Assembly: GCF_003086295.3 (NCBI RefSeq)
Contig: NC_092046.1
Location: 103,457,363-103,521,362, forward strand
Direction: 5' to 3'
DNA length: 64,000 nt
Origin: Arachis hypogaea
Taxonomy: Eukaryota; Streptophyta; Magnoliopsida; Fabales; Fabaceae
Made by a program: the position numbers and the translations under genes. The stretch's first letter is position 1. Each line of letters begins with the position of its first letter. The notes under the pieces were generated by a model. The model had not been told where the DNA came from. It saw nothing but the letters and a program-made list of their open reading frames with translations, and ran no database searches. Positions 14,335 to 63,515 of this stretch are shown in pieces.

Positions 14335-14371
14335 ACCTTCCCACACTTAAACATTAGCATGTCCTCATGCT
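14335..14371 (-). promoter_or_regulatory. Polypurine tract with upstream hairpin, Athila 3' LTR edge
   Basis: Minus strand: AGCATG, loop AGGA, CATGCT (14371-14356), then five bases, then TTAAGTGTGGGAAGGT abutting the 3' LTR at 14335. The tract is the expected plus-strand primer. The hairpin immediately before it is conserved in design across elements. Confidence 0.85.
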
Positions 14372-15782
14372 TAATTGAAGGAGATAAATTAAACAAGTAT
14401 GAACATGCAGAAACTCATGCAATGCAATGCAATCCTATATATATATATGAATGTAACTATATGATTCTTGTCCACTTGATCAAAAGTAAATAAGTTCTTC
14501 AAAATAATTATAATTCAAATTCCACTAATTCAATTCTTATAAAGTAAGAGCAGATAAAAATGCAAGAGGATAGCTCATGAAAGCAGGAAACATAGAAATT
14601 CAAGCATGGAACCTTCACTGATGGTGTATGTACACTCTAGTCTCTCTAGTGTATAGGGTAATCACTCTATCCTTCTCTAATCATGCTCTCTAACTTTTTT
14701 TTTTCTCCTAATCAATCAACAACAGTTAACATACCAATACAAACATCATGAGGTCTTTTCAAGGTTGTAATGGGGCTAAGGTAAAGGTAGGGATACATAT
14801 ATGGTCAAGTGAGCTTATAAATTGAATCTTTAATTAACCCAAGCTTCAACCCAACCTATATATTTTACATGACTTTAGAATTCATGCCTAGCTACCCAGA
14901 GTTCCCCTTTTACATTCCATACTCATGTATCAACTTTTTATTTCAATTTTTATCATATGTGCATTGATCCTTGAATTCTTAATTCAGCATTGGGGTAATT
15001 TTGTCCCCTTATTTATTTATTGCTTTTTTTAATTTTTTTTAATATAAAAATAAACATAGCTTATCAATGCACATAGATTTTTAATTCTTATAGTTTCACA
15101 TAAATAGGTATCCAAATTCCCATTGTATTATCATGACATATTCCCTTAATAACTTTTGTTCCCATAATTTCCCATACTTAACTAGCACACACAATTCTAT
15201 CTTAAGCTAACCAAAGATTCAATTTGGGATATACAATTGTTTTTCCGCTTAAGGCTAGTAATGTGGTGAAATATAGAACAAATGGGATTTAAAGGCTCAA
15301 AGTGGTTAACAAAGGTAATTAAAAGGGTAGGCTTAATTTGGATAAGTAAGCTAAACAAATAATGGCCTCAATTATATGCAAGCATACAAATATAATAAAT
15401 ATTGGACATATAAGATAAAACAAAATATAGATTACAATCATAGAGAAGTAAACACACAAGAATAAAATAATTATGGTTAAATAATGTAACCATTCATAAA
15501 GGCTCAAATCTCACGGGTTGTGTGTTCTTTAGCTCAAACATCATGTTCCAAATATAACTTCAAGCAAATTTATCATAAAATTTTGAAAATTAGTGAAATT
15601 TTGTTCCAAAGATAGAGTCTTAGAAAAAACTTATTGTCTTTTCAATCAAGTAGAACATGCATGCAACTAACCTATTACTATACAATTTATCCTATTCTAT
15701 AAAAGAAAGAAAATCTAAATAAATATCCTAATTTATTGGTGCTAGGGAAGAGAAATTACCTCCGGAAGTCAGGTACTGACCG
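14372..15782 (-). other. Athila 3' untranslated region
   Basis: AT-rich and non-coding. A stretch near 14640-14780 (for example AGCCCCATTACAACC and AAAAGACCTCATGA on the minus strand) is clearly related to element A at about 28760-28930, evidence of kinship between the two. The apparent open frame near 15319-15507 is AT-rich and not convincing. Confidence 0.6.
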
Positions 15783-15820
15783 ACCTCCCTACACTTAAGG
15801 CTTTGCACCGTCCTCGGTGC
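15783..15820 (-). promoter_or_regulatory. Internal hairpin plus polypurine-like tract at the end of the Athila 3' ORF
   Basis: Minus strand: GCACCG, loop AGGA, CGGTGC (15820-15805), six bases, then TTAAGTGTAGGGAGGT (15798-15783). The hairpin encodes the last residues of the 3' ORF (GTEDGA) and the tract overlaps its stop codon. Confidence 0.75.
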
Positions 15821-16320
15821 CATCTGTCAGGAACAGGGGTGGGCTGGTAGCAGTATCTCCACAGTCGGGACCATTATGGCTCCCTGTGCTGGTAAAGGAA
15901 GTGGAGTCCGGGGTGTCTGAGTCCTTGAATTTTTCCTTGAGTAGCTCCTTGAGGTGTTTGAATCGGCGCTCGTTACGGCGCTCTCTTAACTTCGCTTTTT
16001 GGTCTTGCCGATCCAATCTTTGGATTATCTGCTGGAGCAGTTCATCTGTTGTAGGTGCTTGTGGTGGTGAAGAAGGGATATCTTCAACCGGAACAGTGGG
16101 AAGGCTTGTAGTGGCTGCTGAAAGTCTGAGGTATTTCCCATTAGGGACATACTGATCATCCCGTGGGAGCATGGCTTTCGTCAACCTTTATGATCCTCTT
16201 AACTCTTTTTGTTGAGGGCTTAACTGCAGTTGAAGAAGGCTCTGCCACTAGTGCTCTTTTAGTTCCTCTTCTTGCTGGAGGTTTGGGAGTAGCTTTCTCT
16301 TTTCCTTTCTTGGTGGCCAT
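15795..16320 (-). pseudogene. Athila 3' ORF (env position), frameshifted, probably internally deleted
   Basis: The ATG at 16320 is directly preceded by CCCTTTTTCAGG, a good 3' splice-site context, so the ORF may have been expressed from a spliced RNA. The N-terminal part (to 16156) is basic: MATKKGKEKATPK, then RRGTKRALV and KRVKRIIKVD, a likely nuclear-targeting region. A second frame (16184-15795) gives a proline-rich stretch and a charged helix (LLQQIIQRLDRQDQKAKL, then RRNERRFKHLKELLKE). The two frames overlap, so a frameshift is needed to join them. No signal peptide or membrane segment is visible, so despite its position it does not look like an envelope protein. It resembles the two ends of element A ORF2 with the central plant-transposon domain missing. 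Confidence 0.55.
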
Positions 16321-17094
16321 CCTGAAAAAGGGAAGAGAAGGTAAATTAAATTCAAAGAGATATATAGCAATGAAGAGAATGAAAAAGGGATGGTTGTAAA
16401 TGCACATTAAAAGGTAAATGATGTCAACACATCCTCATGAGTACATGTGAAAGATCATTAATGGAGAATAGTTAGTGCATATGATGACAAGTGAATGCAA
16501 GGTGTTTATTGGCATGCCGGCAAAGGGCATGAGTAGCATAGACCAAGCATTACTTTGTAACAAACCATCACGTTTGTATTGACAATTAAATTCAATTAAT
16601 ATAATAGTAAAGGGGATTTGTGAAAAGCAAGCATTGAATAGTAGAATAACATAGAGAAGTGCATAATGCCATATGGGCTTTTTCACAAACACATAGCATG
16701 CAAGGTAAATAAATTATAGAAAGTATTAAAGTGAACATGCAATCAACCCTTTAAAGAAAATAATATATAATTGTCAAACAATTTGCAACAATCCACAAGC
16801 ATATAATGAAAAATAATGACTCAAATAAAATTCTAACACCATGTAAAAAGGAAAGAAGTAGGAAGAAAATATGAATAATGAAAAGAAAAAGAAAAGAAAA
16901 GAAAATAACATATAAAATAAGAAGAATGATAGAAAAGAAAAGGGTGAAGAAGAAAATAAAACCTTGTTAATGGAGGTGAGGGAGAGAGAGTGAAAGGTGA
17001 GATAGAAGGAAGAAGAGAGAAGGAAGAAATAAGGAGGGAAAAGAGAAAAATAGGATTTGGAGAGAAAAAGATATGATATTTGACAAAATTAGAG
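16321..17094 (-). other. Non-coding region between Athila integrase and 3' ORF
   Basis: AT-rich with a long purine-rich stretch at 16850-17070 (AAAGAAAAG and GGAAGAAG runs). Its translation gives Phe/Ser/Leu-rich junk frames, which I leave out. It may contain the intron before the 3' ORF. Confidence 0.5.
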
Positions 17095-17640: not shown

Positions 17641-17803
17641 TTTAATAATAAATATGCAGATGCAGATGCACGAAAGTACTGATAAAGAGAAGAGTTATTG
17701 AATATGAGAAACTAAAAATAAAGAAAAGAACAATCATACCATGGTGGGTTGTCTCCCACCTAGCACTTTGCTTTAACGTCCGTAAGTTGGACGCTCCACT
17801 AGC

Positions 17804-23200: not shown

Positions 23201-24650
23201 TGATGGTGTGCAGAAATTGACAAATTAAAAATTGTTAAAACATTTACGTTGTAAGTATAGTTCTTAACTTTTCAGAAATCTGCTCCTCAATTTAGAAAGG
23301 TGTCACAGAAAATTGAATTTAAAATTCTGGGAGTATGAATCCCAGGTCGTCTCCCAACGAGTCGCAGAAAAGTGTGCTATTTTATTAATCAGAGGTTTTC
23401 AAAAAAGGTTTGAATTGGGCAAACAGGAAATTAAATTGGTAAATTTGAATAATGTAAATAAAAGCCTTGACTAGGAATTGATTAGTTGGAATCCCTATTA
23501 TTGTTGGAATGAATTTCAGGATTAATTGACAATTAAAGGTTATCCTGTTTAGTTATCCTTCGCTAGGTGAAGAAAAGTCAAACAAGTGGGAATGCTATGT
23601 CCGTTCACAAGTTGCAATTCACTTAATAAAAAGGGATTAGTGTTAGTGATTAGGAGGCAATCCAACCATAAACCCAATTGCAATTTTTCTTTCAAGCCTT
23701 CCAACTTAAGCGTTCCTTTCAATCAATTCCCCATCAAGTTAGGGAACTACTCGCTCATTGTGAATGTAAAATTCATAGCATATAAAAAGGAATTAAAGAA
23801 AGACATTGTAAATAAAGTTAAAATAGTCAATTAAAAATAAAAGTGATCCTTGTATTAAATAATCCTAAGAATATTCCAATGGTAAAATTAAACAAAGCAA
23901 GGAACATGGAAGATTAAACCAAGTAAAGAAAATGAACTAGAATGACGAAGTCTTGATGAGGTAATAACTCTTCTCAGTGTTCCAATGCCAAAAAAAAAGT
24001 AAAAGAAAACTAAAATCCTAAGAACTATGAATGTGTAGAGAGAAAACCTAGAGGAGGAGCAAAACTAGATCTAAAAACTAAAACTGTGTAGAATGAATGT
24101 TCTCTTTGGTTTCTGCATGTTCTCTGGCTCTAGTCTGCTGTTCCGGGCCGAAAGCTGGGTCAAAATAGGGCCCAAAATCGCCCCCAGCGAATCTGTAAAT
24201 TATGCAGATCGCGCAGGTCACGCGATTGCGTCGCTCATGCGAACGCGTCATTCGCGTTTCTGCTTTGCCACGCGGATGCATCGTCCACGCCTCCGCGTCG
24301 CTCGTACTTTTCCATTTTGCGCGGTTGCGTCATCCATGCGGCCGCGTCGCTTCTCGCTGGTCATCTCCTCAATTTCTTGTGTTCCTTCCATTTTTGCTAG
24401 CTTCCTTTCCAATCTCCAACTCATTCTTGCCCTATAAAGCCTAAAACACTTAACACACAGATCACGACATCGAATGGAATAAAGGAGAAGTAAAATGTAC
24501 AATTAAAAGTTTCTAGGAATCAGTTTTCACTCATGTAATAATTTCAGGAAGGAAATATAATTGCATGCTATTTTAATGAATAAGTGGGTCAGGATCATGA
24601 TAAAACCACACAATTAAACACAATATAAACCATAAAATAGTGGTTTATCA
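23201..24650 (-). other. 5' LTR of the Athila-like element
   Basis: 1450 bp, closely similar to the other copy apart from scattered single-base changes, mostly C/T or G/A, and the 49-base difference in the palindrome array (24203-24355). It carries the CTGGGA...TCCCAG hairpin at about 23327-23345. Confidence 0.93.
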
Positions 24651-24655
24651 ACCCC

Positions 24656-26152
24656 CAACCCCCTCTTTCTCTTCCAACGTTCCTCTTGCCTCCTCCCTTC
24701 TCCCAGTAGCAACTCTGACCACCGCTCGCCGGCGTCCAACCACCGCCGTCGCCCCTCTCTTCCCTCACTACCACCCTATTCTCTCTCTCTCGTTCTCACT
24801 CATCCTTCCTCTCTCATTTTTCCTCTCTCACTACCACAACCTCAACCGAGCGCCGCTGCCCTTCACCACCGGCGAGCGCTGCAATGCCGTCGCAGGCCTC
24901 CATCTCCTCCTCCCTTTTCTCATTTCCCACCCCCCATTCCATTCCACCCTGCTCCCAGGTTACTCCCTTGCCTCTTCTTCCTTTATTTTATTTTCCATTA
25001 GTTTACTGTTAGTTCTAGTTAGTTAGAATTTGATTTTGATTGTTAGGATTAGTTAGAGATATCTACTGTTAGGTAGCTAGGATGTGGTTAGAGGATTCTA
25101 GGCCTGATAATTACGCCATATTTGTTTACCTAATTGAGCACATGTTGATTGATTGCTGCGTGGTATTGATCATATTTTGCCATGATGCACTCTTCATATT
25201 CTGCTGCCTGCTGTATTTCTCATTCTGTGATTATGTTGCTGCTGCCTGGTTATATGCAATCCACTTGTCATCATGATTATTGCTTTTTGCTACTGATTAA
25301 TTATGCTTGTTGTTTTTTGGATTCATATGACTCTCCTGCTGTTTTTTGGCTATCCGGGAACGTCCAAATTACAGTCGGGATACTGCCCAATTTTTCCAAA
25401 AACTATTTTAACCTTCAAATCTTGCCTAGGATTGAACTTGGCATTTTCAAATTAACCTTTGCCCAACTCACACCAAGTTCAATTTCTAGGACATTTGGGC
25501 TAGCTTTTCCGTTCTTATTTTGTTTCCCGTGATTAGCAGTGACTAAATGAACTTAAGGTATTGCCTAAACATTTCATTGAACCATAATTTGCAATTTCCT
25601 TACACGATGTTCATTCTTTCACAATAATTGGTGTATCCCTATGGTGTAACTCTTTTTTTTCACTCTATTTGGTCTTCACCTTTTCATAGTTACACAAACG
25701 CACTCTATTGCTTATAGCACCAATTATTGGAAATCCATTATCACATGCTTTTGGCATTCCTACATTCTCATGAGTGTGAACATGATTGTTGTACACATTT
25801 TGCGATTCTTTTTTAATTAGGCCATTCTCCATCATACCACTAATTCTCAATCACTTTTTAATTCACTAACTTGTCTAACCTACTGATTTCATTTCTCATT
25901 TTACTAAACTCTTTAACCATTCTTTTGAGTTATGATGATTAATGTGCCTAATACATGAGCATTGTGTTACATTGTTTGAAATGTTTAATTCTTAGTTTAT
26001 GGATATGTCTTCTGTGCTTACATGCATTCCAAGTTGTTAATCTTAGTTCACATCATGATTACTTGTCATTCATCTTACACCCTGAACATGTTCTTCCTTG
26101 CTTCCTGCTACGTGTTTAATTGCTTATATTCTACTCTATTCTGTTTTTCAGG
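24656..26152 (+). other. Element A leader upstream of ORF2: C-rich start, then T-rich intron-like sequence
   Basis: 24656-24960 is unusually C-rich (CTCTCTCTC, CCACCGCCGTCGCC and CACCGGCGAGCGC words), like the 5' leader of a plant gene. The following 1.2 kb is T-rich with no ORF and ends TCTGTTTTTCAGG directly before the ORF2 ATG, a strong 3' splice-site context. A 5' splice site is plausible near CCAGGTTACTCC (24955-24966) but not proven. This looks like an internal promoter/leader or captured host sequence with an intron. Confidence 0.45.
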
Positions 26153-27389
26153 ATGTCGGATAAGGGAAAAGGCAAAGCCACCTCCAAAAAGAGGAAAAGG
26201 GCCCCAGATTCTACTTTCTCTCCTTATGTGGATTATTCAAAAAATCCTATTAATGATGAGGAGAGGACAAATCAATCATTGCCTGCCCAGGATACAGTCA
26301 AATTCCCTAATCTCTACTATGAACTTCGGTTCCCGAGCTACAATAAGAAGAACTTGAACATTGAAAAGAAGTTGGTTATTCCATCCGATTTGAGGCAAAC
26401 GATTAATAACCGCATTGAGAGGATGGGGTTAGACTTTGTAGATCGTGAACTTAGCCGGGTGAACCGGCCTTGGGTGCAAGAATTCTATTGCAACTTCTTC
26501 TGCCACACCCTTGACTCGGTACTTGTTAGAGGTATTCAGGTGCCCATCACTAAGCAGGCCATTGAGGACGCCCTTACTTGTAGGCCCAAGTCAGGTGATA
26601 CTGATGCCTTTGAGCAGGCCGAGGTGGAGCTCCACTGCATGACCTTTGATTTTGATTCTTTGAGGGCAGTGGTTGCTATCTCGGAGGCTCCCTGGGTTAT
26701 GGATGTGGACAACAAGGCACCCAAGGGGATATGCTTTACCTATCTGAGCAGAGAGGCCAAGACATGGCAGTAGATTTTTGCCCACTACCTCATGCCGACT
26801 ACCCACTTCTCAGAGATCCCCGTTGTTATGTTGATCCTGATCAGCTATGTGCTAGAGGGGAAGGATGTCTATTTCCCCCTGCTGATCAGGCAGTTCATGT
26901 GGCAGGCCCACATCAGAGGATCCTTTCCATTTCCCGTCCTTGTCACACAGATGGCTCAGTGGGCCGGTGTCCAGTGGCTACCGGAGGACGTGTCGCCACC
27001 CCACCGCTCCCTAAGAAGGAGCCAGTGACCATTCCATGGGGTCCTGGGTGATCGATAAGCCTCCTTCCCGGCGCCGATCTCGGGCTAGGGCAGCAGTTGA
27101 GGGAGCTGGACCTTCTTCGTCATCAGCCCCAGCAAGAGCATCTACATCAGCAGCAACAATTCCTTTACCACCACCACCAGCGCCCCAGCCAACCTACTTA
27201 CTGGTTCAACGTCTTTTTCGGTTCATGGAGCGCAGCAAGCGCCAGCTCATGCGTCGCGTGGACTGGATTGACCAGATATTTATGGCCCAGGGCTTTGAGC
27301 TGCCCCCTCTTCCAGAGTCCTCCGGTTCAGATGAGGAAGCCCATGAGGAGGGGCATGAGGACTTACATGATGAGGATTCACATGAGTAG
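26153..27389 (+). pseudogene. Element A ORF2: putative plant transposon protein domain, broken
   Basis: The ATG at 26153 follows TTTTTCAGG. The N-terminus is basic (MSDKGKGKATSKKRKRAP). The body carries the features I associate with the putative plant transposon protein domain (PF20167-like): WVQEFYCNFF, VLVRGIQVPITKQAIEDAL, then after an in-frame TAG (26771-26773) IFAHYLMPTTHFSEI and LISYVLEGKDVYFP. Two frameshifts near 27000-27050 lead to the C-terminal frame (27036-27389) with a Pro/Ala/Ser-rich linker, the helix FRFMERSKRQLMRRVDWID and an acidic His/Glu tail. The domain has no assigned activity. The ORF lies where Athila elements carry their 3' ORF. Elements B and copia carry relatives. 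Confidence 0.65.
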
Positions 27390-27504
27390 GAGCCGGTTCA
27401 CGTGGAAGCACCACCACAGACCCAGGCTACCTAAGAGACACCTCAGCCACAGCCCCAGCCAGAGCCAGAGCCGACCGGTGTACCTCTCCCTGAGCATGAG
27501 GATT

Positions 27505-27543
27505 AGCATCGGGGACAATGCTTGATCTTAAGTGTGGGGAGGT
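27505..27543 (+). promoter_or_regulatory. Internal hairpin plus polypurine-like tract after ORF2 of element A
   Basis: GCATCG, loop GGGA, CAATGC (27506-27521, one C/A mismatch), seven bases, then TAAGTGTGGGGAGGT (27529-27543). Same design as the module at the 3' LTR edge (29197-29233). Confidence 0.7.
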
Positions 27544-29196: not shown

Positions 29197-29233
29197 AAGC
29201 ATGAGGACATGCTTGGTTTAAGTGTGGGGAGGT
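29197..29233 (+). promoter_or_regulatory. Polypurine tract with upstream hairpin, element A 3' LTR edge
   Basis: AAGCATG, loop AGGA, CATGCTT (29197-29214), four bases, then TAAGTGTGGGGAGGT (29219-29233) directly against the LTR start. The tract is the expected plus-strand primer. Confidence 0.88.
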
Positions 29234-30698
29234 TGATAAACCCCCTTTGTAGGGTTTATCTTGTATTGAATTTAGAGCATTTTGATAACCTTTCCTCACA
29301 TTTATTCCATGAAATAGCATGATTTTGTGATTGACCCCTTATTTGTGCTTAAATGTGAAAACATGCTTTTAGACCTATAATTTGATGAATTTCTATTTCC
29401 CTTTGATTCTACTAGATGCCTTGATGTGGTTGTTAGTGATTTTAGAATTGAAAAAGGCTAGGAATGGATCAAGGGAGCAAGGAAGGAAGCATGCAAGTAG
29501 AGAAGATCATGAAAAGCTAAAGAATTGAACTCGCCCATGGACGCGCGCGCGCACCAGGCGCTTACGCGCACCTTACGAAGTCACCCATGGACGCGTACGC
29601 ATGCTGTGCGCGTACGCGTCGGTGCTGATATATGATTTTTTTAATAGAACACGTGCCTGGCGATTTTGGAGGGTTTTCAACCCCATTTGGAGTTGAGTTT
29701 TGGCGGGAAAAGGGCTAAAAAGACCAAGGAATGAAGGGGAAAGCAATATATAGATTCATACACACACATTAGGCTAGTTAGTTGGAGTTTTTAGAGAGAG
29801 AAGCTCTCACTTCTCTCTAGAATTAGGATTAGGATTATGTTTAGTTTTTAGATCTAGGTTTTAATTCATGCTCTCTTCTATTTCTTCTTCTTAATTCCTT
29901 ATTGTTACATTCATCATTCTCTATTGTTGTTATAATTTCTTCTACTTTGTTGTAGATATACTTTTGTTCCTTCTATTTTCTTTTAATACAATTTGAGGTA
30001 ATTCATGAGGATCTTATTTTCTTTGATTGTTGTTTTTGATTTCTTACATTCAATTGTTGTTAGATTCTATTCTTGTTATCAATTTACTATACTTTTCTTT
30101 TATGCCTCCCAAGTGTTTGATGAAATGCTTGGTTGGATTTTAGTATAGATTTTTATCCCTCTTGGCCTAGGTGGAGTAATTAGTGACGCTTGAGTTATCT
30201 AATTCCTTTGTTGATTGATAATTAAAAGTTGCTAATTGATTTGGATACCACTAAAGCTAGTCTTTCCCTTGGAAGTTGGCTAGGACTTGTGGAATCAATG
30301 TAATTCATCCACTTGACTTTCCTCCACGATTAGAGGTTAACTAAGTGGTAGCAATGGACAATTTTGGTCACAATTGAGGAAGATAACGAGGATGGGACTT
30401 CCAATTCTCATAACCTTTCTAAGAGCTTTTCATAGTTGCTAGTTTATTTTCATTGCATTTTATATTTCTTGTCTCCTATCTCAAAAACCCCAAAACAACC
30501 CATAACCAATAACAAGAACACTTTATTATAATTCCTAGGGAGAACGACCCGAGGTTCAATACTTCGGTTTATAGATTTTAGGGGTTTGCACTAGTGATAA
30601 CCAAATTTTTGTATGAAAGGACTATTGTTGGTTTAGAAACTATACTTTACAACGAGAATTTATTAAGAATTCTAAACCATCAAAAGTCCTAATCATCA
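29234..30698 (+). other. 3' LTR of element A
   Basis: 1465 bp, closely matching the 5' LTR. Palindromic GC-rich stretch at about 29538-29627 and TATATAG at 29747-29753. It ends AATCATCA and is followed by the GTAAG duplication. Confidence 0.95.
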
Positions 30699-38571: not shown

Positions 38572-39170
38572 GTTTTGTTGATAATTTGTGAAATTTTCAA
38601 TTCTGTTTGGTTTTGTCTCGTAGGAAGGCAGAGACATTTTTGGGACATGAGGAACACGCCATGACTCAGGGGGAGACTGTGCTAACTTTAATTATCTTGG
38701 GCTCCACCAAATTTCTTTGACCTCACTCTGACCAGTTTTAAATTCCTCCTTGTGTTAATCACAATTCTCTTTTGTTGTCCTATCAAATCTTGTTGGAAGA
38801 AGTTATTGTCAAATCAAATCTTTTCCCTCTTCTCATCCCTTGATTCTAGGAACCAACCTTTCAGTTTTAATTTCAAATAAAAGGAAACTTTCTTTGGTTA
38901 ATAACCGCTCATTAATGGGTATTAACTCCCTCCAATTCTCTCTCCACTCAACATTTAATGCTTCCCTAACCTCCCACATCTCTCCACTCAATTCGGTTCT
39001 CTCTTCATCTTCGCCCTTCCACTTCTCCATTTTTATTATTATGAAAAAAAACTGCTCCAAGGAAAAGTGAACGAATCCTTATCTCCAAAAAATCCTCCAC
39101 CCCTCTAATCCACACTCATATACACATTCATTCTACATCTTCATACTCTCCCTCACCATCATCTAAGAAA
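38572..39170 (+). other. Spacer between copia pol and the 3' ORF
   Basis: Non-coding. It holds an AGGGGGAGA polypurine-like tract at 38668-38676 followed by TGTGCTAAC, the position and form of a 3' LTR junction in copia elements that lack a 3' ORF. No LTR starts here. Confidence 0.5.
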
Positions 39171-40452
39171 ATGGACACCATGAGGAGAAAGGTGATAGCA
39201 ACAAAGACTTCCTCAAGGAAAAAGAAGGAACCCATGGTTGAAGAAGAAGAGGAGTCCCACACCTCACCGCCTCTATCACCACCGCTATCACCGCCGAAGA
39301 GGACCACCCCCGAACGCAGTTCACAGAAGACCAAAAGTTTTGTGTTACACAACACGAGGGAACCAGCCAACTTAGAATCATTGGAATTTAAAAATAAGTT
39401 CAACAAATCTCATTCACACTTTGATCCAGCCAGGTTCAATTCATGTGCATCCTATGAGTTCCACAAGGAAGTGTTAGAGAAACGCCACTTATGTGCCACA
39501 TACCTAGTGAATCTGGACTCACTGACAGCCAAAGGAATCAACTTTTCTCATCTGTTTGAGAATCTGAAATGGACTCCTCTACTCCATATTCAGAAACCCG
39601 TTTACCCTGAATTGGTACGTGAATTTTATGCTAATATGAGGCTGATCAATGGTACCATTCATTCCTATGTAAAGAGGGTATACATGACTCTGAACTCGGA
39701 GACAATCGGCGCTGCCCTAGGCTACACGGATGAGGGACCAAGAGCGTACATGACTGATAAATGGGACTCTCTTGTTGGAGTCACATCCAAGGTTGCCCTT
39801 CAACAAATCTATGAGAACTTGTCTAGCTTGGATGGCACCATCCCGACTCACAAGGCACTCGGTTCCACAAACTCATTGCTCCACAGAATCATCACTCATC
39901 TTCTAACTCCTCAAAGTGGTTCACATAATAGAGTAACTGTTTCTGACTCTCTTGTACTCTTTGCTATTGTTACTTCCTCTCCTATTTCTTTTCGATACCT
40001 TATGATAAGGCATATGTGGGAATCTGTTAAAAGTACCAAAAAAGGCAAATTTACCTTATGGCATATTTCTCACCAGTATTTTTGAATATTTTAAAGTTGA
40101 TCTAATAAATGAAGTTGTAGAGAATAAGGTTTCACTCATTAAGGGAGGAGGAGTTATGAAAGGGAACAAAGGAAAAAAGTCTATTCCCTCTGACAGCAAG
40201 TTTGAGAGCCGGCCACCTGAGCATTCCAAGACAGCAGAATCGATCAAAGACATTCTTACTGAGTTCTATAACATGTCTAAACTAATGGTGGATTCATACA
40301 AGGCTGCACGTAAACAAGCTTTTGAAAATGAAAGGGCATGGGTGAAGTGCCAAGAGAGGGTGGGCCTAAAGCTGCAAAGCTTTGAAGAAGAGATGGGGGG
40401 TGCCAATGATGATGATGCAGATGGCTCTGAGTACAATTTATCCGATGATTGA
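39171..40452 (+). pseudogene. Copia 3' ORF with plant transposon protein-like domain, one frameshift
   Basis: The ATG at 39171 (MDTMRRKVIATKTSSRKKKE) opens a frame to 40085. A one-base shift near 40045 leads into a second frame ending at 40452. The N-terminus is basic, then acidic and Pro/Ser-rich. The middle shows VYPELVREFYANMRLI, YVKRVYMTLNSETIGAALGY and ITHLLTPQSGSHNRVTVSDS, matching in order the motifs of element A ORF2 and element B (VQEFYA, VRGKYLDFSPENVR, IIPTSNRSEVTVDRA). The C-terminus has a charged helix (KLMVDSYKAARKQAFENERA) and an acidic end. SIRE-type elements carry an env-like ORF here. I see no signal peptide or membrane span and prefer the plant-transposon-domain reading. 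Function unknown. Confidence 0.65.
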
Positions 40453-41377: not shown

Positions 41378-42520
41378 TGGTGCGCAGAAATTGTGATTAC
41401 ACTTTAATTATGTAAAATTCATCGCTCTTTCTTTCCCTGGTAATGGCGCCAAAAATATGATGCCAATACCATGGTTCACAACTTCGCACAACTAACCAGC
41501 AAGTGCACTGGGTCGTCCAAGTAATACCTTACGTGAGTAAGGGTTGAATCCCACGGAGATTGTTGGTATGAAGCAAGCTATGGTCACCTTGTAAATCTCA
41601 GTCAGGCGGATATTAAAATAGTAATGGAGTTTTCGAAAATAATTAATAAAATAGGGATAGAAATACTTATGTAAATCATTGGTGAGAATTTCAGATAAGC
41701 GAATAGAGATGCTTTCGTTCCTCTGAACCTCTGCTTTCCTGCTGTCTTCATCCAATCAGTCTTACTCCTTTCCATGGCTGGCTTTATGTGATACATCACC
41801 ATTGTCAATGGCTACTTTCGGTCTTCTCTCGGGAAAATGATCCAAATGCCCTGTCACGGCACGTCTAATCGTCTGGAGGCATCACCCTTGTCAATGGCTT
41901 CATCTTATCCTCTCAGTGAAAATGGTCAACGCACCCTGTCACGGCACTGCTATTCATCTGTCGGTTCTCGATCCTGCTGGAATAGGATTTACTATCCTGT
42001 TGCGTCTGTCACTACGCCCGGCAATCGCGAGTTTGAAGCTCGTCACAGTCATTCAATCATTGAATCCTACTTGGAATACCACAGACAAGGTTTAGACCTT
42101 CCGGATTCTCTTGAATGCCGCCATCATTCTAGCTTACACCACGAAGATTCCGATTAAGAAATCTAAGAGATACTCATTCAATTCTAATGTAGAACGAAAG
42201 TGGTTGTCAGGCACGCGTTCATAGGGAATGATGATGATTGTCACGTTCATCACATTCAGGTTGAAGTGCAAATGAATATCTTAGAAGCGAAATAAGATGA
42301 ATTGAATAGAAAACAGTAGTACATTGCATTAATCCTTGAGGAACAGCAGAGCTCCACACCTTAATCTATGGAGTGTAGAAACTCTACCGTTAAAAATACA
42401 TAAGTGAAAGGTCCAGGCATGGCCGAATGGCCAGCCCTCCTGATCTAAGAACCAGGCGTCCAGAGATATAACTCAGGATCAAAAGATAATCCAAAGATGT
42501 CTAATACAATAGTAAGAGGT

Positions 42521-42530
42521 CCTATTTATA
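42521..42530 (-). promoter_or_regulatory. TATA box of the element B LTR
   Basis: Minus-strand TATAAATAGG, duplicated in the 5' LTR at 51706-51715; the palindromic words lie upstream of it in U3. Confidence 0.6.
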
Positions 42531-42644
42531 ATAAACTAGCTACTAGGGTTTACAGAAGTAAGTAATTACTGCATAAATCCACTTCCGGGGCCCACTTGGT
42601 GTGTGCTTGGGCTAAGCTTTAACTTTCCACGTGCAGAGGCCATT

Positions 42645-42760
42645 TGTGGAGTTGAACGCCAGGTTTTGATCCATTTCTAGCGTTCAACTCTGGTTTTTGA
42701 TCCCTTTCTGGCGCTGAACTCCAGAATTGGGCAGAGAGCTGGCGTTGAACGCCAGTTTGC
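42645..42760. repeat. GGCGTTGAACGCC palindromic words in the element B LTR
   Basis: GAGTTGAACGCCAGG, TAGCGTTCAACTC, TGGCGCTGAACTCCAG and TGGCGTTGAACGCCAG within about 110 bases; repeated in the other LTR at about 51832-51945. The same words form the internal array at 46010-46200. Confidence 0.8.
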
Positions 42761-43129
42761 GTCATCTATTCTTGGCCAAAGTATAGACTATTAATATTTC
42801 TGGAAAGCCTTGGATGTCTACTTTCCAACGCAATTGGAAGCGCGCCATTTCGAGTTCTGTAGCTCCAGAAAGTCCACTTTGAGTGCAGGGAGGTCAGAAT
42901 CCAACAGCATCAGCAGTCCTTCTTCAACCTCTGAATCTGATTTCTGCTCAAGTCCCTCAATTTCAGCCAGAAAATACCTGAAATCCCAGAAAAATACACA
43001 AACTCATAGTAAAGTCTAGAAATGTGAATTTAACATAAAAACTAATGAAAACATCCCTAAAAGTAACTAGATTCTACTAAAAACATACTAAAAACAATGC
43101 CAAAAAGCGTATAAATTATCCGCTCATCA

Positions 43130-43167
43130 CAACACCAAACTTAAATTGTTGCTTGTCCCCAAGCAAC
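43130..43167 (-). promoter_or_regulatory. Polypurine-like tract with upstream hairpin, element B 3' LTR edge
   Basis: Minus strand: an 8-bp stem GTTGCTTG / CAAGCAAC with loop GGGA (43167-43148), four bases, then TAAGTTTGGTGT (43143-43132) next to the 3' LTR. Confidence 0.8.
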
Positions 43168-44285: not shown

Positions 44286-45437
44286 TTAGTGATGGTGGCG
44301 TTTCCTTCTTGAGGAACCAATTATGTCCTTGGGCTCTTCTATGTCTCTTCCTTGTCTTTGTTGCTCCTCCCTCATTGCTTTTTGATCTTCTCTTATTTCA
44401 TGGAGCATGATGGAGTGCTCTTGATGTTCCACCCATAATTGTCCCATGTTGGCACTTAATTCTCCTAGGGAGGTGTTGATTTGCTCCCAATAGTTTTGTG
44501 GGGGAAAATACATTTGAGGCATCTCCGGGATCTCATGGTGATGAGCTTCCTGCGCCTCTTGAGCTCCATGAATGGGCTCTCTTGCTTGCTCCATCTTTTT
44601 CTTAGTGATGGGCTTCTCTTCCTTAATAGGAATGTCTCCTTCTATGAAAGCTCCAGCTGAGTAACATAGATGGCAGATAAGATGAGAAAAAGCTAGCCTT
44701 GCCATGGGGGATGACTTTTCGGCTATTTTGTAGAGTTCATTAGAGATGACTTCATGAACTTCTATTTCCTCTCCAATCATGATGCTATGAATCATGATGG
44801 CCCGATCCACAGTAACTTCAGATCGGTTGCTAGTGGGAATGATTGAGCATTGAATGAACTCCAACCATCCTCTAGCCACAGGCTTGAGGTCCAATCTTCT
44901 TAGTTGAACCGGCTTGCCTTTGGAGTCAATCTTCCATTGAGCTCCTTCCAAACATATGTCCATAAGGACTTGGTCCAACCTTTGATTAAAGTTGACCCTT
45001 CTAGTGTAGGGGCGTTCATCTCCTTGCATCATGGGCAAGTTAAACGCCAACCTCACATTCTCCGGACTAAAATCTAAGTATTTCCCCCGAACCATTGTAA
45101 CGTAGTTCTTTGGATCCGGGTTCTTACTTTGATCATGGTTCTTGGTGATCCATGCATTGGCATAGAACTCTTGAACCATTAGGATGCCGACTTGTTGGAT
45201 GGGATTTGTTAGAACTTCCCAACCTCTTCTTTGAATTTCATGTCGGATCTCCGGATACTCATTTCTTTTGAGTTTGAAAGGGACCTCGAGGATCACCTTC
45301 TTATTGGCCACAACATCATAGAAGTGGTCTTGATGGGCTTTGGAGATGAACCTTTCCATCTCCCATGACTCGGAGGTGGAAGCTTTTGTCTTCCCTTTCC
45401 CCTTTCTAGAGGATTCTCCGGTCTTAGGTGCCATCAA
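44286..45437 (-). CDS. Element B 3' ORF: putative plant transposon protein domain, intact frame
   Basis: A 383-residue open frame, the only uninterrupted large ORF in the window. N-terminus basic/Ser-rich (MMAPKTGESSRKGKGKTKAS). Residues about 30-260 carry the domain: YDVVANKKVILEVPFKLK, IQRRGWEVL, ILMVQEFYANAW, VTMVRGKYLDFSPENVRLAF, then WLEFIQCSIIPTSNRSEV and VDRAIMIHSIMIGEEIEV. About 310-375 is an amphipathic coiled coil (NTSLGELSANMGQL... EIREDQKAMREEQQR), and it ends RRKRHHH. Basic ends suggest nucleic-acid contact, but no activity is known for the family. It stands at the env position of an element that lacks pol. Intactness fits recent insertion. Confidence 0.72.
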   Translation of the reverse strand: MMAPKTGESSRKGKGKTKASTSESWEMERFISKAHQDHFYDVVANKKVILEVPFKLKRNEYPEIRHEIQRRGWEVLTNPIQQVGILMVQEFYANAWITKNHDQSKNPDPKNYVTMVRGKYLDFSPENVRLAFNLPMMQGDERPYTRRVNFNQRLDQVLMDICLEGAQWKIDSKGKPVQLRRLDLKPVARGWLEFIQCSIIPTSNRSEVTVDRAIMIHSIMIGEEIEVHEVISNELYKIAEKSSPMARLAFSHLICHLCYSAGAFIEGDIPIKEEKPITKKKMEQAREPIHGAQEAQEAHHHEIPEMPQMYFPPQNYWEQINTSLGELSANMGQLWVEHQEHSIMLHEIREDQKAMREEQQRQGRDIEEPKDIIGSSRRKRHHH

Positions 45438-45472
45438 TGGTAATGGAAAAATAAAAAGCTTATGCTTTTACC

Positions 45473-45507
45473 ACACCAAACTTAGAATATTGCTCGCCCT
45501 CGAGCAA
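45473..45507 (-). promoter_or_regulatory. Internal hairpin plus polypurine-like tract before the element B 3' ORF
   Basis: Minus strand: TTGCTCG, loop AGGG, CGAGCAA (45507-45490), then TAAGTTTGGTGT (45484-45473), 36 bases upstream of the 3' ORF start. Same design as at the LTR edge, with a different stem sequence. Confidence 0.75.
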
Positions 45508-47004: not shown

Positions 47005-48723
47005 TCACCTTAGTTCATTGATGAACAAGGGGGGTTCATCTTCCCAAGTTTCAATACCAAATAATTTGGCATTCAGCTTCATGATTGCACCAAGAAACTT
47101 GGCAGTTTGCTCTTCAGTAACATCCTCATTCTCTTCAGAAGAGGAATACTCATCAGAGCTCATGAATGGCATAAGGAGGTTCAATGGAATCTCTATGGTC
47201 TCTAGGTGAGCCTCAGAGTCCTTTGGTTCCTCAGAGGGAAGCTCCTTATTGATCACTGGACGTCCCAGGAGGTCTTCCTCCTTGGGATTCACGTCCTCCT
47301 CTCCCTCATTGGGTTCGGCCATTTTGGTTATGTCAATGGCCTTGCACTCTCCTTTTGGATTCTCTTCTGTATTGCTTGGGAGAGTACTAGGAGGGATTTC
47401 AGTGATCCTTTTACTCAGCTGGCCCACTTGTGCTTCCAAATTTCTAATGGAAGACCTTGTTTCATTCATAAAACTTGCAGTGGCCTTGGATAGACCAGAG
47501 ACTAAGTTTGCTAAATTAAAAGTATTTTGTTCAGAGTTCTCTGTCTGTTGCTGAGTGGATGATGAAAAAGGCTTGCTATTGCTAAACCTATTTTTTCCAC
47601 CATTATTAAAGCCTTGTTGAGGCTTTTGATCCTTCCATGAGAAATTTGGATGATTTCTCCATGATGAGTTATAGGTGTTTCCATAAGGTTCACCTAAGTA
47701 ATTCACCTCTGCTATTGCAGGGTTCTCAGGATCATAAGCTTCTTCTGCATAAGAAGCCTCTTGAGTACTGTTGGATGCAGCTTGCATTCCATTCAGACTC
47801 TGAGAAATCATATTGACTTGCTGACTCAATATTTTGTTCTAAGCCAATATGGCATTCAGAGTATCAACTTCAAGAACTCCCTTCTTCATAGGCGTCCCAT
47901 TACTCATAGGATTCCTCTCAGAAGTGTACATGAACTGGTTGTTAGCAACCATGTCAATGAGTTCTTGAGCTTCTGCAGGCGTTTTCTTTAGGTGAATGGA
48001 TCCACCTGCAGAGGTATCCAATGACATCTTTGATAGCTCAGATAAACCATCATAGAATATATCCAGGATGGTCCACTCTGAAAGCATGTCAGAAGGACAC
48101 TTTTTGGTCAGCTGCTTGTATCTTTCCCAAGCTTCATAGAGGGATTCACCTTCTTTCTGTTTGAAGGTTTGAACATCCACTCTAAGCTTACTCAGCTTTT
48201 GAGGAGGAAAGAACTTGGCTAAGAAAGCCGTGACCAGCTTATCCCAAGAGTTCAGGCTGTCTTTGGGTTGAGAGTCCAACCATATTCTAGCTCTGTCTCT
48301 TACAGCAAAAGGGAAAAGCATGAGCCTGTAGACTTCAGGATCTACTCCATTAGTCTTAACAGTATCACATATCTGCAAGAATTCAGTTAAGAACTGAAAA
48401 GGATCTTCAGATGGAAGTCCATGAAACTTGCAGTTCTGCTGCATCAGAGAAACTAATTGAGGTTTCAGCTCAAAGTTGTTTGCTCCAATGGCAGGAATGG
48501 AGATGCTTCTTCCATGTAAATTGGAATTAGGTGCAGTAAAGTCACCAAGCATCCTCCTTGCATTATTATTATTTTCGGCTGCCATCTCCTTTACTTGTTC
48601 AAAATTTTCAATAAGGTTGTCTCTGGATTGTTGTAATTTAGCTTCTCTTAGTTTTCTTTTCAGAGTCCTTTCAGGTTCCGGATCAGCTTCAACAAGAATG
48701 CCTTTTTCTTTGTCCCTGCTCAT
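47005..48723 (-). pseudogene. Element B gag, one in-frame stop, no zinc knuckle
   Basis: Starts at 48723 (MSRDKEKGILVEADPEPERT). A retrotransposon gag domain spans about residues 85-215: PFQFLTEFLQICDTVKTNG, MLFPFAVRDRARIWLDSQP, LVTAFLAKFFPPQKLSKL, ESLYEAWERYKQLTKKCP. TAG at 47839-47841 interrupts the frame, which continues to 47005 with GNTYNSSWRNHPNFSWKDQ and an acidic tail. The Cys-rich zinc knuckle expected between the gag domain and that motif is absent. The sequence is close to Athila-type gag but differs from the Athila copy here. Particle-forming, possibly impaired in RNA binding. Confidence 0.83.
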
Positions 48724-50562: not shown

Positions 50563-52315
50563 TGGTGCTCAGAAATTGTGATTACACTTTAATTATGTAA
50601 AATTCATCGCTCTTTCTTTCCCTGGTAATGGCGCCAAAAATATGATGCCAATACCATGGTTCACAACTTCGCACAACTAACCAGCAAGTGCACTGGGTCA
50701 TCCAAGTAATACCTTACGTGAGTAAGGGTCGAATCCCACGGAGATTGCTGGTATGAAGCAAGCTATGGTCACCTTGTAAATCTCAGTCAGGCGGATATTA
50801 AAATAGTAATGGAGTTTTCGAAAATAATTAATAAAATAGGGATAGAAATACTTATGTAAATCATTGGTGAGAATTTCAGATAAGCGAATAGAGATGCTTT
50901 CGTTCCTCTGAACCTCTGCTTTCCTGCTGTCTTCATCCAATCAGTCTTACTCCTTTCCATGGCTGGCTTTATGTGATACATCACCATTGTCAATGGCTAC
51001 TTTCGGTCTTCTCTCGGGAAAATGATCCAAATGCCCTGTCATGGCACGGCTAATCGTCTGGAGGCATCACCCTTGTTAATGGCTTCATCTTATCCTCTCA
51101 GTGAAAATGGTCAACGCACCCTGTCACGGCACGGCTATTCATCTGTCGGTTCTCGATCCTGCTGGAATAGGATTTACTATCCTTTTGCGTCTGTCACTAC
51201 GCCCGGCAATCACGAGTTTGAAGCTCGTCACAGTCATTCAATCATTGAATCCTACTCGGAATACCACAGACAAGGTTTTGACCTTCCGGATTCTCTTGAA
51301 TGCCGCCATCATTCTAGCTTACACCACGAAGATTCCGATTAAGAAATCTAAGAGATACTCATTCAATTCTAATGTAGAATGGAAGTGGTTGTCAGGCACG
51401 CGTTCATAGGGAATGATGATGATTGTCACGTTCATCACATTCAGGTTGAAGTGCGAATGAATATCTTAGAAGCGAAATAAGATGAATTGAATAGAAAACA
51501 GTAGTACTTTGCATTAATCCTTGAGGAACAGCAGAGCTCCACACCTTAATCTATGGAGTGTAGAAACTCTACCGTTAAAAATACATAAGTGAAAGGTCCA
51601 GGCATGGCCGAATGGCCAGCCCCCCTGATCTAAGAACCAGGCATCCAGAGATATAACTCAGGATCAAAAGATAATCCAAAGATGTCTAATACAATAGTAA
51701 GAGGTCCTATTTATAATAAACTAGCTACTAGGGTTTACAGAAGTAAGTAATTGCTGCATAAATCCACTTCCGGGGCCCACTTGGTGTGTGTTTGGGCTGA
51801 GCTTTAACTTTCTACGTGCAGAGGCCATTTGTGGAGTTGAACGCCAGGTTTTGATCCATTTCTGGCGTTCAACTCTGGTTTTTGATCCCTTTCTGGCGCT
51901 GAACTCTAGAATTAGGCAGAGAGCTGGCGTTGGACGCCAGTTTGCGTCATCTATTCTTGGCCAAAGTATGGACTATTATATATTGATGGAAAGCCCTGGA
52001 TGTCTACTTTCCAACGCTATTGGAAGCTCGCCATTTCGAGTTCTGTATCTCCAGAAAATCCACTTTGAGTGCAAGGAGGTCAGAATCCAACAGCATCAGC
52101 AGTCCTTCTTCAACCTCTGAATCTGATTTCTACTCAAGTCCCTCAATTTCAGCCAGAAAATACCTGAAATCCCAGAAAAACACACAAAATCATAGTAAAG
52201 TCCAGAAATGTGAATTTAACATAAAAACTAATGAAAACATCCCTAAAAGTAACTAGATTCTACTAAAAAGATACTAAAAATAATGCCAAAAAGCGTATAA
52301 ATTATCCGCTCATCA
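50563..52315 (-). other. 5' LTR of element B
   Basis: 1753 bp and nearly identical to the 3' copy, including the internal decayed primer site (50619-50636). TATA box at 51706-51715 (minus). Confidence 0.93.
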
Positions 52316-52320
52316 CTAAC

Positions 52321-52458
52321 ATTGATGAGTTGAAGTGAAATTGAATTAACAGAAAGTAAATGGCAATGAATTGTAAATTGCAAAAAGTCAATTGGACAGA
52401 AACTTCAATTGGCAAGAAAAGTAAATTGAGAGAATCTTAAATGAAAAGAAATGTAAAT
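52321..52458 (-). other. Element C 3' LTR, segment 2
   Basis: 138 bp between the CTAAC duplication of element B and the TAAAT duplication of the large solo LTR. Words such as AAAGTAAATGGCAATG match the style of the solo LTR 30912-32938 read in reverse. Confidence 0.75.
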
Positions 52459-58153: not shown

Positions 58154-58190
58154 CAACACCAAACTTAAACCTTGCTTATCCCCAAGCAAG
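58154..58190 (-). promoter_or_regulatory. Polypurine-like tract with upstream hairpin, element C 3' LTR edge
   Basis: Minus strand: CTTGCTT / AAGCAAG stem (58190-58171) with a GGGGAT loop, then TAAGTTTGGTGT (58167-58156) next to the LTR end. Confidence 0.78.
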
Positions 58191-60934: not shown

Positions 60935-61855
60935 AAAATTGGTGAATTAGTTCTTTTGGCAAGCGCACCAAAATTATCGTCAAGTAATAACCCACAGTGG
61001 AGTGGGATCGTATCCACAAAGATTGGCAAATTCGAGCAGTTTTAATTAATTGATGAATTAGTCAAGCAGATCAATAGGATTGTAAAGTGCAGAATTGTAA
61101 ATGACATAAATGTGAATGACTAGAATAGAAAGAAAAGCAATAAAGTGCAGAAATATAAATGGCAGAATGTAAAGTGCAGAATCATAAATGACTTGAATGT
61201 AAATGGGAATGGGGAATTACTGAATGTAAAATTAAGCTATAGAGAAATGGATAGATAAAAATGGGGAAATTCATTGAGATTGGGAGATGTTGTCTCTTTG
61301 GATCAAATTTAGCTTATATCCTCTTCAATCATGCAACTCATTGACCTCTTGGCAATCATGATTGATTGAGCCCTAATCCCTTGGTGACTCAATCTCTCAG
61401 ATCTTGATCAATAGCCAATTCCTTGGTTTAATTGCTCATGAAGAGAGATATGCTTGGTCCCTGATTATACCACACACCATTATAGGTCCAAGTAGAGGGA
61501 GGATTATATGTCACATATCCAAACACCAAAACCCAGATTCTACTCAAGTGTGAGAAAGGATTTCAAGCATGGTTTCATGTTTCCTTTCCCAAGGTTCCCA
61601 TGAAACCCAATTGCATTCAATCTCTTTTCCAAGATAATTGAACACTAAGCATTAAGAATGAAATTCCTTCTAGCAAATCAAAGAGAAGATAAAGAGAAGA
61701 AGAATTTCACTATTATCAATCCATCAAGTACAACAGAGCTCCCTCTCTCAATGAGAGGGAAGTTAGCTACTCATAGCTCAAAAAGTACTCAAAAGTGAAG
61801 TGTAAAAGTGGATCTAAAACTGACTACTTAACCCCTTCTTCAGTACTCCTTGGGG

Positions 61856-61865
61856 GTATTTATAG
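61856..61865 (-). promoter_or_regulatory. TATA box of the element D LTR
   Basis: Minus-strand CTATAAATAC, about 90 bases downstream (minus strand) of the palindrome array. Confidence 0.55.
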
Positions 61866-61954
61866 TACTCCTAGTAAAATAAAAGAATTACAAAAGTGAA
61901 AAAGGAAAATTTCATTTTGGAGGGAAAAGAAAATACTCAATAAGCGTGACTTCC

Positions 61955-63290
61955 CAGCTGGCGTGTGGCTGGCACTTTACTGGCGTGTCACGTGCCCTTT
62001 ATTTCTAGCTTGGCGTGCCACGCCCAATACTTTAAGTGGCACGCTCATCTCTCTATCAACTTTGGCGTGCCACGCCTTCGAACTCAAGTGGCACGCCAAA
62101 GTGGAATTCTTGTGTTGGCGTGCCACGCCTTCGAACTCAAATGGCACGCCCTTTGCCTTTTTCCACTTTTCTTTGTCTCTGAAAACTTGAACTGGCGTGC
62201 CACGCCCAGGGTCTGGCATGCCACGCCCTTGCTCTATTCTTGGCTAAGCTTCTTTGGAAAGTTGCGCTAGCGTGGCACGCCCAGGGTCTGGCGTGCCACG
62301 CCCCTTTTGTGAGTGAGTGGTTCCTCTGTTTGGCGTGCCACGCCACGAACTCAAGTGGCATGCCCCAATACTTCTTTGCTCTCTGAATGACACTGGCATG
62401 CCACGCCTGGTTGCTTAAGTGGCACGCCTAAGTAAAGAATGGTGAGTGGCATGCCACGCCTTCGATACCAAGTGGCACGCCCCATGTAATTGGCCTCCTT
62501 CATCCTCTCTGGAAACTTATACCAGCGTGCCATGCCTAAAGGCTGGCGTACCACACCCATGATCTTGTCTTGGTTCCAGTAGTTGGCGTGCCACGCCTCA
62601 GCCTTCAAGTGGCACGCCATAGTGACATACTTGGGTTGGCGTGCCACGCCTTCGATACCAAGTGGCACGCCCAGTCCTTGCTTTTGTTATCTTTATGCAT
62701 TGGCGCGCCACGCCTGGTCGCTCAAGTGGCACGCCTAAGTGAGGTTGAGAGGTTGGCATGCCACGCCTTTGACTTCAAGTGGCACGCCCAGTCTTCAATT
62801 GCCTTCAGCCCTTTCTCTGGATTATTGTACCAGCGTGCCACGCCATGCTGTTCAAGTGGCATGCCCATGGATTTGTGAACTTTTCAAGCTTGGCGTGCCA
62901 CGCCTGGGTTCTCAAGTGGCATGTCCAAGTGACTTCTTGGAGCTGGCATGCCATGCCTTCGATACCAAGTGGCACGCCATAGTGGAGGTTCTTCTTGGAA
63001 TGGTGAGTTGGCGTGCCACGCCCCTTTGCTCAAGTGGCACGCCCATAGTAGTTGATGGGTCAGGCGTGCCACGGCCAACCTGGCGTGCCACGCCCCTTTT
63101 GTGTCCTCCATTGTAGCTCTCTGGAATTTTGTATTAGCGTGCCACGCCTAGTCCCTGGCGTGCCACGCCCACATGCATGCTTGGACTTCTTCTCTGGACT
63201 TTAGTACTGGCGTGCCACGCCCAACTCCTGGCATGCCACGCCAGTGCATTTTTGTGGCGTTTGCTCTCAAGTGGCACGCCAGTTTCACAC
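61955..63290. repeat. GGCGTGCCACGCC inverted-repeat array in the element D LTR
   Basis: About 20 paired units in 1.3 kb. Most have the form GGCGTGCCAC, then GCC plus 10-14 variable bases and AA, then GTGGCACGCC, giving a perfect 10-bp stem; units lie 50-75 bases apart with unrelated spacers. A second type pairs two GGCGTGCCACGCC words around CAGGGTCT or AGTCCC. Variants are mainly CG to TG or CA. Many short ORFs overlap it in all frames and are repeat artefacts. Confidence 0.92.
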
Positions 63291-63479
63291 GCCCAGCTTC
63301 TTGTTTGTCTTCTACCCATTTTTGTTGCCTTTTTCACCTGAAATTCAGTACAACTCATCTCAAAGTAGTGTCCCATAATATTCATCAAATAATGCATGAA
63401 TTGTACTGATCAAATGAGATTTATGCTCTTTTATGGTCTTCTTTATGCAAGAAAGAAGGGTAGATGATGCAAGTCATCA

Positions 63480-63515
63480 CAACACCAAACTTAAGCTTTG
63501 CTTGTCCCAAGCAAA
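63480..63515 (-). promoter_or_regulatory. Polypurine-like tract with upstream hairpin, element D 3' LTR edge
   Basis: Minus strand: TTTGCTT, loop GGGAC, AAGCAAA (63515-63497), then TTAAGTTTGGTGT next to the LTR end. Confidence 0.78.

Follow-up and report, generated by a model that had tools for sequence, protein, structure and literature searches.

A covarying purine-loop hairpin accompanies candidate plus-strand primer tracts at LTR edges and inside gypsy-type retrotransposons of Arachis hypogaea

Why does a short hairpin stand directly upstream of the tract that adjoins the 3' long terminal repeat (LTR) of a retrotransposon, and why does the same arrangement recur inside the element with a different but equally well-paired stem? 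The question is raised by a 64-kb stretch of the Arachis hypogaea genome (C11:103457363-103521362, hereafter the window), which self-comparison resolves into nested LTR retrotransposons, and in which an initial annotation made from the letters alone had noticed eight hairpins with purine loops, each followed by a polypurine-like tract. We confirm that this composite module is real, and observe its structure, covariation and spacing, as well as its occurrence in two element types and, within an element, at two positions. We put the probability that the module acts as a cis-acting RNA signal for plus-strand priming in plant Ty3/gypsy elements at roughly 0.45, a function read from sequence features.

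Eight hairpin-tract modules in nested retrotransposons

All eight modules were found where they had been annotated and on the annotated strands, and in 8/8 both hairpin arms lie upstream of the tract. On the plus strand, the 3' edge of element A (LTRs 8865-10325 and 29234-30698; target duplication GTAAG) carries the hairpin AAGCATG(AGGA)CATGCTT (29197..29214; pairing probability 0.92-0.99 for pairs 1-6) and the primer tract TTTAAGTGTGGGGAGGT (29217..29233), with the LTR starting at 29234. An Athila-type element inserted inside A on the minus strand (LTRs 12835-14337 and 23201-24653 by self-comparison; duplication GGGGT) has the edge hairpin AGCATG(AGGA)CATGCT (14356..14371; absent from the long-context fold) and the tract TTTAAGTGTGGGAAGGT (14335..14351). 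Also on the minus strand, element B (LTRs about 41378-43129 and 50563-52321; duplication GTTAG) has the hairpin GTTGCTTG(GGGA)CAAGCAAC (43148..43167) followed by TTTAAGTTTGGTGTTG (43130..43145), which is not polypurine; its LTR starts TGATGAGC, which extends the tract 2 nucleotides (nt) past the end first assigned to it. Two further minus-strand edges, C and D, carry CTTGCTTG(GGGA)TAAGCAAG (58171..58190) with the same tract TTTAAGTTTGGTGTTG (58154..58169), and TTTGCTTG(GGA)CAAGCAAA (63497..63515) with the tract CTTAAGTTTGGTGTTG (63480..63495), respectively. Placement at a 3' LTR edge, proposed for all five, is established for A, Athila and B by an LTR pair and a 5-bp duplication, and for C and D by shared junction sequence only.

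The internal modules are those of A (AGCAT C G(GGGA)C A ATGCT, 27505..27522, plus strand; tract TTAAGTGTGGGGAGGT, 27528..27543, 16 nt identical to the A edge), of the Athila-type element (GCACCG(AGGA)CGGTGC, 15805..15820, minus strand; tract TTAAGTGTAGGGAGGT, 15783..15798), where the list of open reading frames (ORFs) holds none of at least 180 aa, and of B (TTGCTCG(AGGG)CGAGCAA, 45490..45507, minus strand; tract TAAGTTTGGTGT, 45473..45484), directly before a stop-to-stop ORF (45467-44286, PF20167). Upstream of the A internal hairpin, AGCATGAGGATT (27490-27522, plus strand) looks like one half of an edge hairpin, as a partial duplication of the module might leave. The purine loops are present throughout, with the qualification that C has a GGGA loop closed by a G-U pair, D a GGA triloop, and the A internal stem a C-A mismatch at pair 2. 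The description of the tract as polypurine-like holds for A and Athila, with 9/12 purines in the 12 nt before the LTR, and fails for B, C and D (6/12); the chromovirus-like elements introduced below reach 12/12.

Perfect hairpins of at least 5 bp with a G[AG]GG[AG]C loop occur once on the plus and four times on the minus strand of the 64 kb, all among the eight modules. A looser rule, written after the eight had been seen (RGGR or GGA loop, at least 6/8 standard pairs, an AAGG or AAGT start 8-14 nt further on), returned exactly the eight and no others. When at least 7/8 pairs were demanded, the window held 7 modules versus a mean of 0.425 and a maximum of 2 in 40 dinucleotide shuffles; at 6/8 or more it held 8 versus a mean of 2.2 and a maximum of 11, so that the A internal module, the weakest, is not significant alone. 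Folding with 100 nt on each side predicted that 7/8 hairpins form.

Stems covary around a conserved loop

To look beyond the window, genome-scale counts were taken from this one genome (2.557 Gb in 440 contigs). Exact copies of the B-type 21-mer with its LTR junction, TTAAGTTTGGTGTTGTGATGA, number 51,073 (control 0), and those of the A-type tract TTAAGTGTGGGGAGGT 35,263 (control 5). A B-type LTR start or a near form was seen at 29/30 of the TTAAGTTTGGTGTTGTGATGA sites inspected, and this tract group is therefore dominated by one family. Seventy-six sites were collected by their tract, with neither loop nor stem in the pattern (30 TTAAGTTTGGTGTTGTGATGA, 30 TTAAGTGTGGGGAGGT and 16 of a chromovirus type), and a G[AG]GG[AG][CT] loop stood at the usual upstream place in 69 of them. 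In this genome, this rate, covering edges and internal sites, and the stem covariation given below both came out in favour of the initial annotation on the two points that it had named as able to refute it. Among the 66 distinct 60-nt stretches upstream of these tracts, 56 contain some tetraloop hairpin of at least 6 bp; the longest such hairpin has an RGGR loop in 51/66 and lies 11-13 nt from TAAG in 51/51 of these cases, with no loop or distance imposed. Five other stretches have a different longest hairpin at 19, 28 or 46 nt, and ten have none, seven of the ten being chromovirus-like.

For covariation, the 76 sites were pooled with the eight window modules, 8 sites picked up through their similarity to the A edge and 25 from searches whose pattern included the loop, giving 117 sites, 109 with the loop, and 61 distinct 24-mers; since these three added sets were not chosen by tract alone, the loop rate to be used is 69/76. 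The 61 modules pair at a mean of 7.38 of 8 positions (7.11 Watson-Crick), compared to 4.50 (maximum 5.28) when arms were randomly re-paired in 1000 trials. Pairs 2-8 are formed in 70-98% of modules versus 42-61% expected, and pairing ends after pair 8 (pair 9, 36% versus 38% expected; pair 10, 28% versus 40%). Six perfect inner pairs are found in 41/61 modules, made up of seven different inner stems (AGCATG, ATTTTG, GCACCG, GCACGG, TGCTCG, TGCTTG and TTTTCG), and a single transition would convert 20/30 of the inner non-Watson-Crick combinations into a pair. Inspected by eye in the 61 modules, G-U versus A-C mismatches gave no strand preference.

A subset of 29 modules was hand-picked from the 61 against redundancy, two badly decayed ones (L108, L114) included, and the figures from the full set agree with it. 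Here 91.8% of 232 cells are paired, compared to 55.0 +/- 2.7 in shuffles; the covariation score is 0.899, versus 0.222 +/- 0.033 for shuffled and 0.107-0.207 for slid alignments, and 7/8 pairs show changes on both sides. Within the loop region G10, G12 and G13 are invariant, and A14 and C15 are conserved in at least 90%. The stem is selected as a structure, as the initial annotation had suggested from stems that vary while pairing is kept.

The hairpin extends to chromovirus-like elements

The module was at first ascribed to Athila-type elements, a scope that is correct as far as it goes and too narrow, as chromovirus-like elements carry the hairpin too. A tract of chromovirus type, predicted in advance on the basis of a chromovirus 3'-end motif and searched with no stem in the pattern, gave 16 copies, 13 of them with the loop and 7 with a perfect 8-bp stem; these 7 are preceded by GATTTTCG(AGGA or AGGG)CGAAAATC, and broken forms of this hairpin precede the remaining copies. 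The reading frame that ends in the LTR's TAA passes through the hairpin. Both integrase pieces tried (L072, L079) matched SH3_Tf2-1, and neither matched a chromodomain; L069-L084 may be Tekay-like chromoviruses.

Two further searches bear on the same point. A pattern fixing the loop, closing pair and tract but no further stem matched 19 places; the stem reaches 6 bp or more at 14 of these and 4 bp at 3, and 2 are decayed. A generic search for the loop followed by AAGG gave 2,837 matches versus 172 in the reversed control, the listed matches being dominated by an unrelated stemless repeat; out of 20 places inspected, 15 had a stem of at most 3 bp and 5 a stem of 8-9 bp, and only these five, all with an LTR-like start (ATGTAA, once ATATAA), entered the counts. 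Additional chromovirus-like edge stems are AATTTTCG/CGAAAATT, AAATTTTG/CAAAATTT and TTTCG/CGAAA. Among viral contigs, the module pattern matched three, whose flanks held no module, and searches with the integrase and reverse transcriptase (RT) proteins found no relatives there.

Distance from the hairpin to the LTR

Distances were read from 34 distinct edge modules whose stems reach 5 bp or more, after 7 with shorter stems and 8 matches lacking the strict loop had been set aside. The end of the loop lies 25 nt (4 modules), 26 nt (21) or 27 nt (9) from the LTR. The distance from the stem base is 15-21 nt, and 17-18 nt in 21/34. The part of this result that is independent of the search is the 11-13 nt between hairpin and TAAG, because the tract part was fixed by the search expressions. 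Internal modules have 26-28 nt between the loop and the end of the tract (n = 8, after exclusion of 3 short-stem modules and 7 matches without the strict loop). Composition upstream of the stem differs between groups: the pyrimidine fraction is 0.77 at Athila-type edges versus 0.40-0.43 further upstream, 0.98 versus 0.55 at B internals (n = 3), barely raised at A and Athila internals (0.69 versus 0.60), and without a pyrimidine-rich stretch in chromovirus-like elements (0.52 versus 0.47).

Internal and edge tracts occur together

The B internal 19-mer TAAGTTTGGTGTGGTAAAA has 24,744 exact copies genome-wide (control 0). In the overlapping part of chromosome C1, 56/62 B-type internal tracts are followed within 6 kb by an edge tract on the same strand, 54 of the 56 at 1.2-2.3 kb and two at 3.8-3.9 kb; seen from the other end, an exact internal copy lies upstream of 57/100 B-type edges. 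For the A-type tract, the first 100 listed sites include 28 adjacent same-strand pairs 1403-1788 bp apart. Possession of both an internal and an edge tract is common in the two main tract groups. Hairpin and tract are coupled both at the edge and inside the same element in A, Athila and B of the window and in the site pairs L040/L041, L046/L047 and L062/L063, and the hairpin is therefore tied to the tract and not to the LTR. As a separate observation, a tract-like copy without a hairpin occurs in the linker (TAAGTGTGGGGGAA at about position 745 of L128 and 892 of L131; CAAGTGTGGGAAAA at window position ~28340).

A possible signal for plus-strand priming

Selection of a purine tract as the plus-strand primer is described as not fully understood, and the polypurine tract (PPT) as having no common consensus, in passages of one paper (PMC3185511). 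HIV-1 RT is said, in a review, to cut 17-18 nt behind the primer end, cuts being likely only where polymerisation pauses, for example at template hairpins (PMC3627382); RT pausing and strand invasion at hairpin bases are reported in sections of a third (PMC3187697). The edge tract is placed as the plus-strand primer site because it adjoins the LTR.

Along the RNA, the module would read as a pyrimidine-rich stretch (in Athila-type elements only), a 7-8-bp hairpin with an RGGR loop, a short spacer, a tract starting with TAAG, and the LTR junction. During minus-strand synthesis RT would copy U3 and next the tract, and would stall at the foot of the hairpin. With the enzyme held there, 15-21 nt (mostly 17-18) from the LTR, its RNase H would be placed near the tract/U3 junction, which is where the 3' end of the primer must be made. 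The internal copy would repeat this design in the linker and serve there as a second priming site. We infer RT pausing, the RNase H cut and priming at the internal site from this geometry. If pausing is what matters, it follows that stem letters may change freely as long as pairing holds, with loop, length and distance kept, that the hairpin should accompany the tract at both sites, and that a tract with 6/12 purines can serve. With a B-type tract of 6/12 purines, the resistance of purines to RNase H would by itself be a poor marker, and in this most abundant tract group some of the tract's role may be taken over by the hairpin.

A bolder version, which we advance tentatively and with the odds running against it, is that the hairpin is a ruler: RT pausing at the selected stem would set the RNase H cut at the LTR junction, allowing the tract to lose purines in the group of ~51,000 copies, in a design that would predate the split between Athila-type and chromovirus elements and be used twice per Athila-type element. 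Were the priming signal real, a structural mark at a constant distance would make the primer signal of plant LTR retrotransposons definable, explain non-purine primer sites, provide a motif for annotating 3' LTR edges, and make RT pausing testable as a primer selector.

Several observations weigh against a priming signal of this kind. The constancy of spacing is partly built in, as the tract expressions have a fixed length (14-15 nt to the LTR) and loops were allowed only 20-36 nt away; moreover, the stem base is scattered and the loop tight, so that the loop may be where the ruler begins, or the spacing may reflect shared descent. The 17-18 nt figure is that of HIV-1 RT, and a term search of one Ty3 review gave no value; in the passages on yeast Ty3 RNA in PMC11381356, the PPT itself is base-paired, with no mention of a comparable hairpin upstream. 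No regular loop is present at 7/76 tract-only sites, comprising the GGA triloop of L028, the truncated L029 and the decayed L060, L065, L071, L076 and L080. The Athila edge hairpin has probability 0 in the fold with 100-nt flanks, where another fold wins, and in the 29 modules the counts of double-change pairs and of pair types are no higher than in shuffles. Finally, when eight rarer internal modules were followed for ~3 kb, an edge tract with the loop appeared only for L129, where the stem is imperfect, and L130; L128 and L131 showed tract-like sequence without a hairpin, and L132-L135 nothing. The internal-plus-edge anatomy is less clear for these rarer modules, and in family G the internal and edge tracts differ.

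An alternative that we regard as unlikely, though well short of implausible, is that the RGGR loop is a binding site for RT, integrase or Gag that positions the protein on the tract, the stem serving only to present the loop. A site read by a protein could account for the loop being the most conserved part of the 29 modules and for a loop-to-LTR distance (25-27 nt) tighter than that of the stem base (15-21 nt). It would fit less well with the substitution of AGGA by a GGA triloop, AGGG or GGGA.

The initial annotation left three options for the internal copy, namely a central PPT, a processing or export signal, or a relic of an older 3' end. The last, in which the element later acquired sequence between an old 3' end, now functionless, and a new one, offers a simple origin for a copy near the end of the coding region; the extra PPT of the beet chromovirus Bongo3, which overlaps the gag-pol stop according to parts of PMC3605345, would suit it, as would the 6/8 rarer internals without a hairpin-bearing edge tract within 3 kb, some of which may be orphaned or truncated. 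A functionless remnant nevertheless appears rather unlikely: many copies retain an intact internal stem, with paired changes distinguishing one family from another (GCACCG, GCACGG, TGCTCG), exact copies of the internal tracts are numerous (24,744 for the B-type 19-mer), and internals are paired with edges (28 pairs among the first 100 listed A-type sites, and 56/62 for B-type). Pairing with edge tracts and reuse of the hairpin with different stems thus disfavour the relic, and the central-PPT role stays putative. A second priming site is the favoured reading of the internal copy because stems and tracts are kept across families, with caution advised by the tract difference in family G and the rarer internals without an edge.

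That the hairpin serves packaging, dimerisation, export or 3' processing of the genomic RNA and neighbours the tract by coincidence is improbable. Hairpins with purine loops are generally known from retroelement packaging regions, but the present one accompanies the tract at both of its sites in an element, perfect RGGR hairpins of 5 bp or more do not occur elsewhere in the window, and RGGR loops are not self-complementary and would not form a kissing loop. Chance, or pure inheritance of a functionless palindrome, is very hard to credit, since it can invoke copies sharing a stem by descent within a family but is contradicted by seven perfect inner stems, a fixed loop and a sharp 8-bp limit.

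Comparison with known primer tracts

Wright and Voytas reportedly described, in 2002, an additional PPT in the Athila4 and Calypso linkers. Athila-type elements were accordingly known to have an internal PPT (PMC2829016, citing Wright and Voytas 2002), which lies in the same type of lineage and the same kind of place as the internal tract here, and differs in that the passage citing it mentions no hairpin. No description of the hairpin beside the tract was found in the literature searched, most subscription papers, including the FIDEL paper, lying outside its scope, so that a prior description is possible. The word hairpin is absent from the main texts of PMC1142308 (Diaspora), PMC2410132 (Athila in Arabidopsis) and PMC2829016. 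The main text of the Bongo3 paper (PMC3605345) lacks the words hairpin, stem and inverted repeat; its PPTa, from a Beta vulgaris chromovirus, resembles the present case as an extra PPT at the gag-pol end in the portions consulted. The parts of the CRM paper (PMC3059260) covered show no such hairpin, the word itself not having been searched.

Retroviral and Ty1 PPTs with their U-box share with the module a tract abutting the 3' LTR, an LTR starting with TG, and T-rich letters directly upstream (TTTAAG); such a T-box or U-box matters for priming in Ty1 and a number of retroviruses, as stated in excerpts of PMC10085805. The module differs by its covarying upstream hairpin and by a B-type tract that is only half purine. 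Closer in form is the inverted repeat at the PPT of Sireviruses and other copia elements, likewise a structure beside the PPT, proposed as a primer aid and with several PPT copies per element; in the relevant sections of PMC2829016, however, the PPT lies in the loop, the right arm falls inside the LTR, and upstream PPTs have no repeat. In the present module the tract follows both arms, and the hairpin is retained at the internal copy. The HIV-1 central PPT and Ty1 PPT2 lie inside coding sequence. Unlike a central PPT, the extra copy here is in the linker, mostly 1.2-2.3 kb from the LTR, and not mid-pol; like it, it is a second tract copy inside the element, in A, Athila, B and the listed pairs. 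A second plus-strand initiation site beside that at the LTR, cited for HIV-1 and Ty1 in PMC2829016, is the trait that the internal copy would share with them.

Other features of the window

A, Athila and B have the primer-binding sequence TGGCGCCGTTGCCGGGGA in common. The minus-strand element inserted in A presumably belongs to Athila, a name taken from the initial annotation; it has the gypsy domain order Retrotrans_gag, RVT_1, RT_RNaseH, H2C2 and rve (23106-17804, minus strand). No module matched in an Rfam search of the window at gathering scores; the sole match, snoR71 (RF00097), lies elsewhere, at 48082-48189 on the plus strand (42.3 bits against a cut-off of 40), in antisense orientation to B's gag ORF. 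A plus-strand copia element with the domains Retrotran_gag_2 and RVT_2 stands between A and B. PF20167 (Transposase_32) occurs at 26120-26770 (plus strand, in A, below the Pfam cut-off), 44289-45467 (minus strand, in B) and 39045-40082 (plus strand, in the copia element). It occupies the 3' part of the gypsy-type elements A and B and lies downstream of RT in the copia element, a distribution that suggests exchange of this ORF between the gypsy and copia superfamilies.

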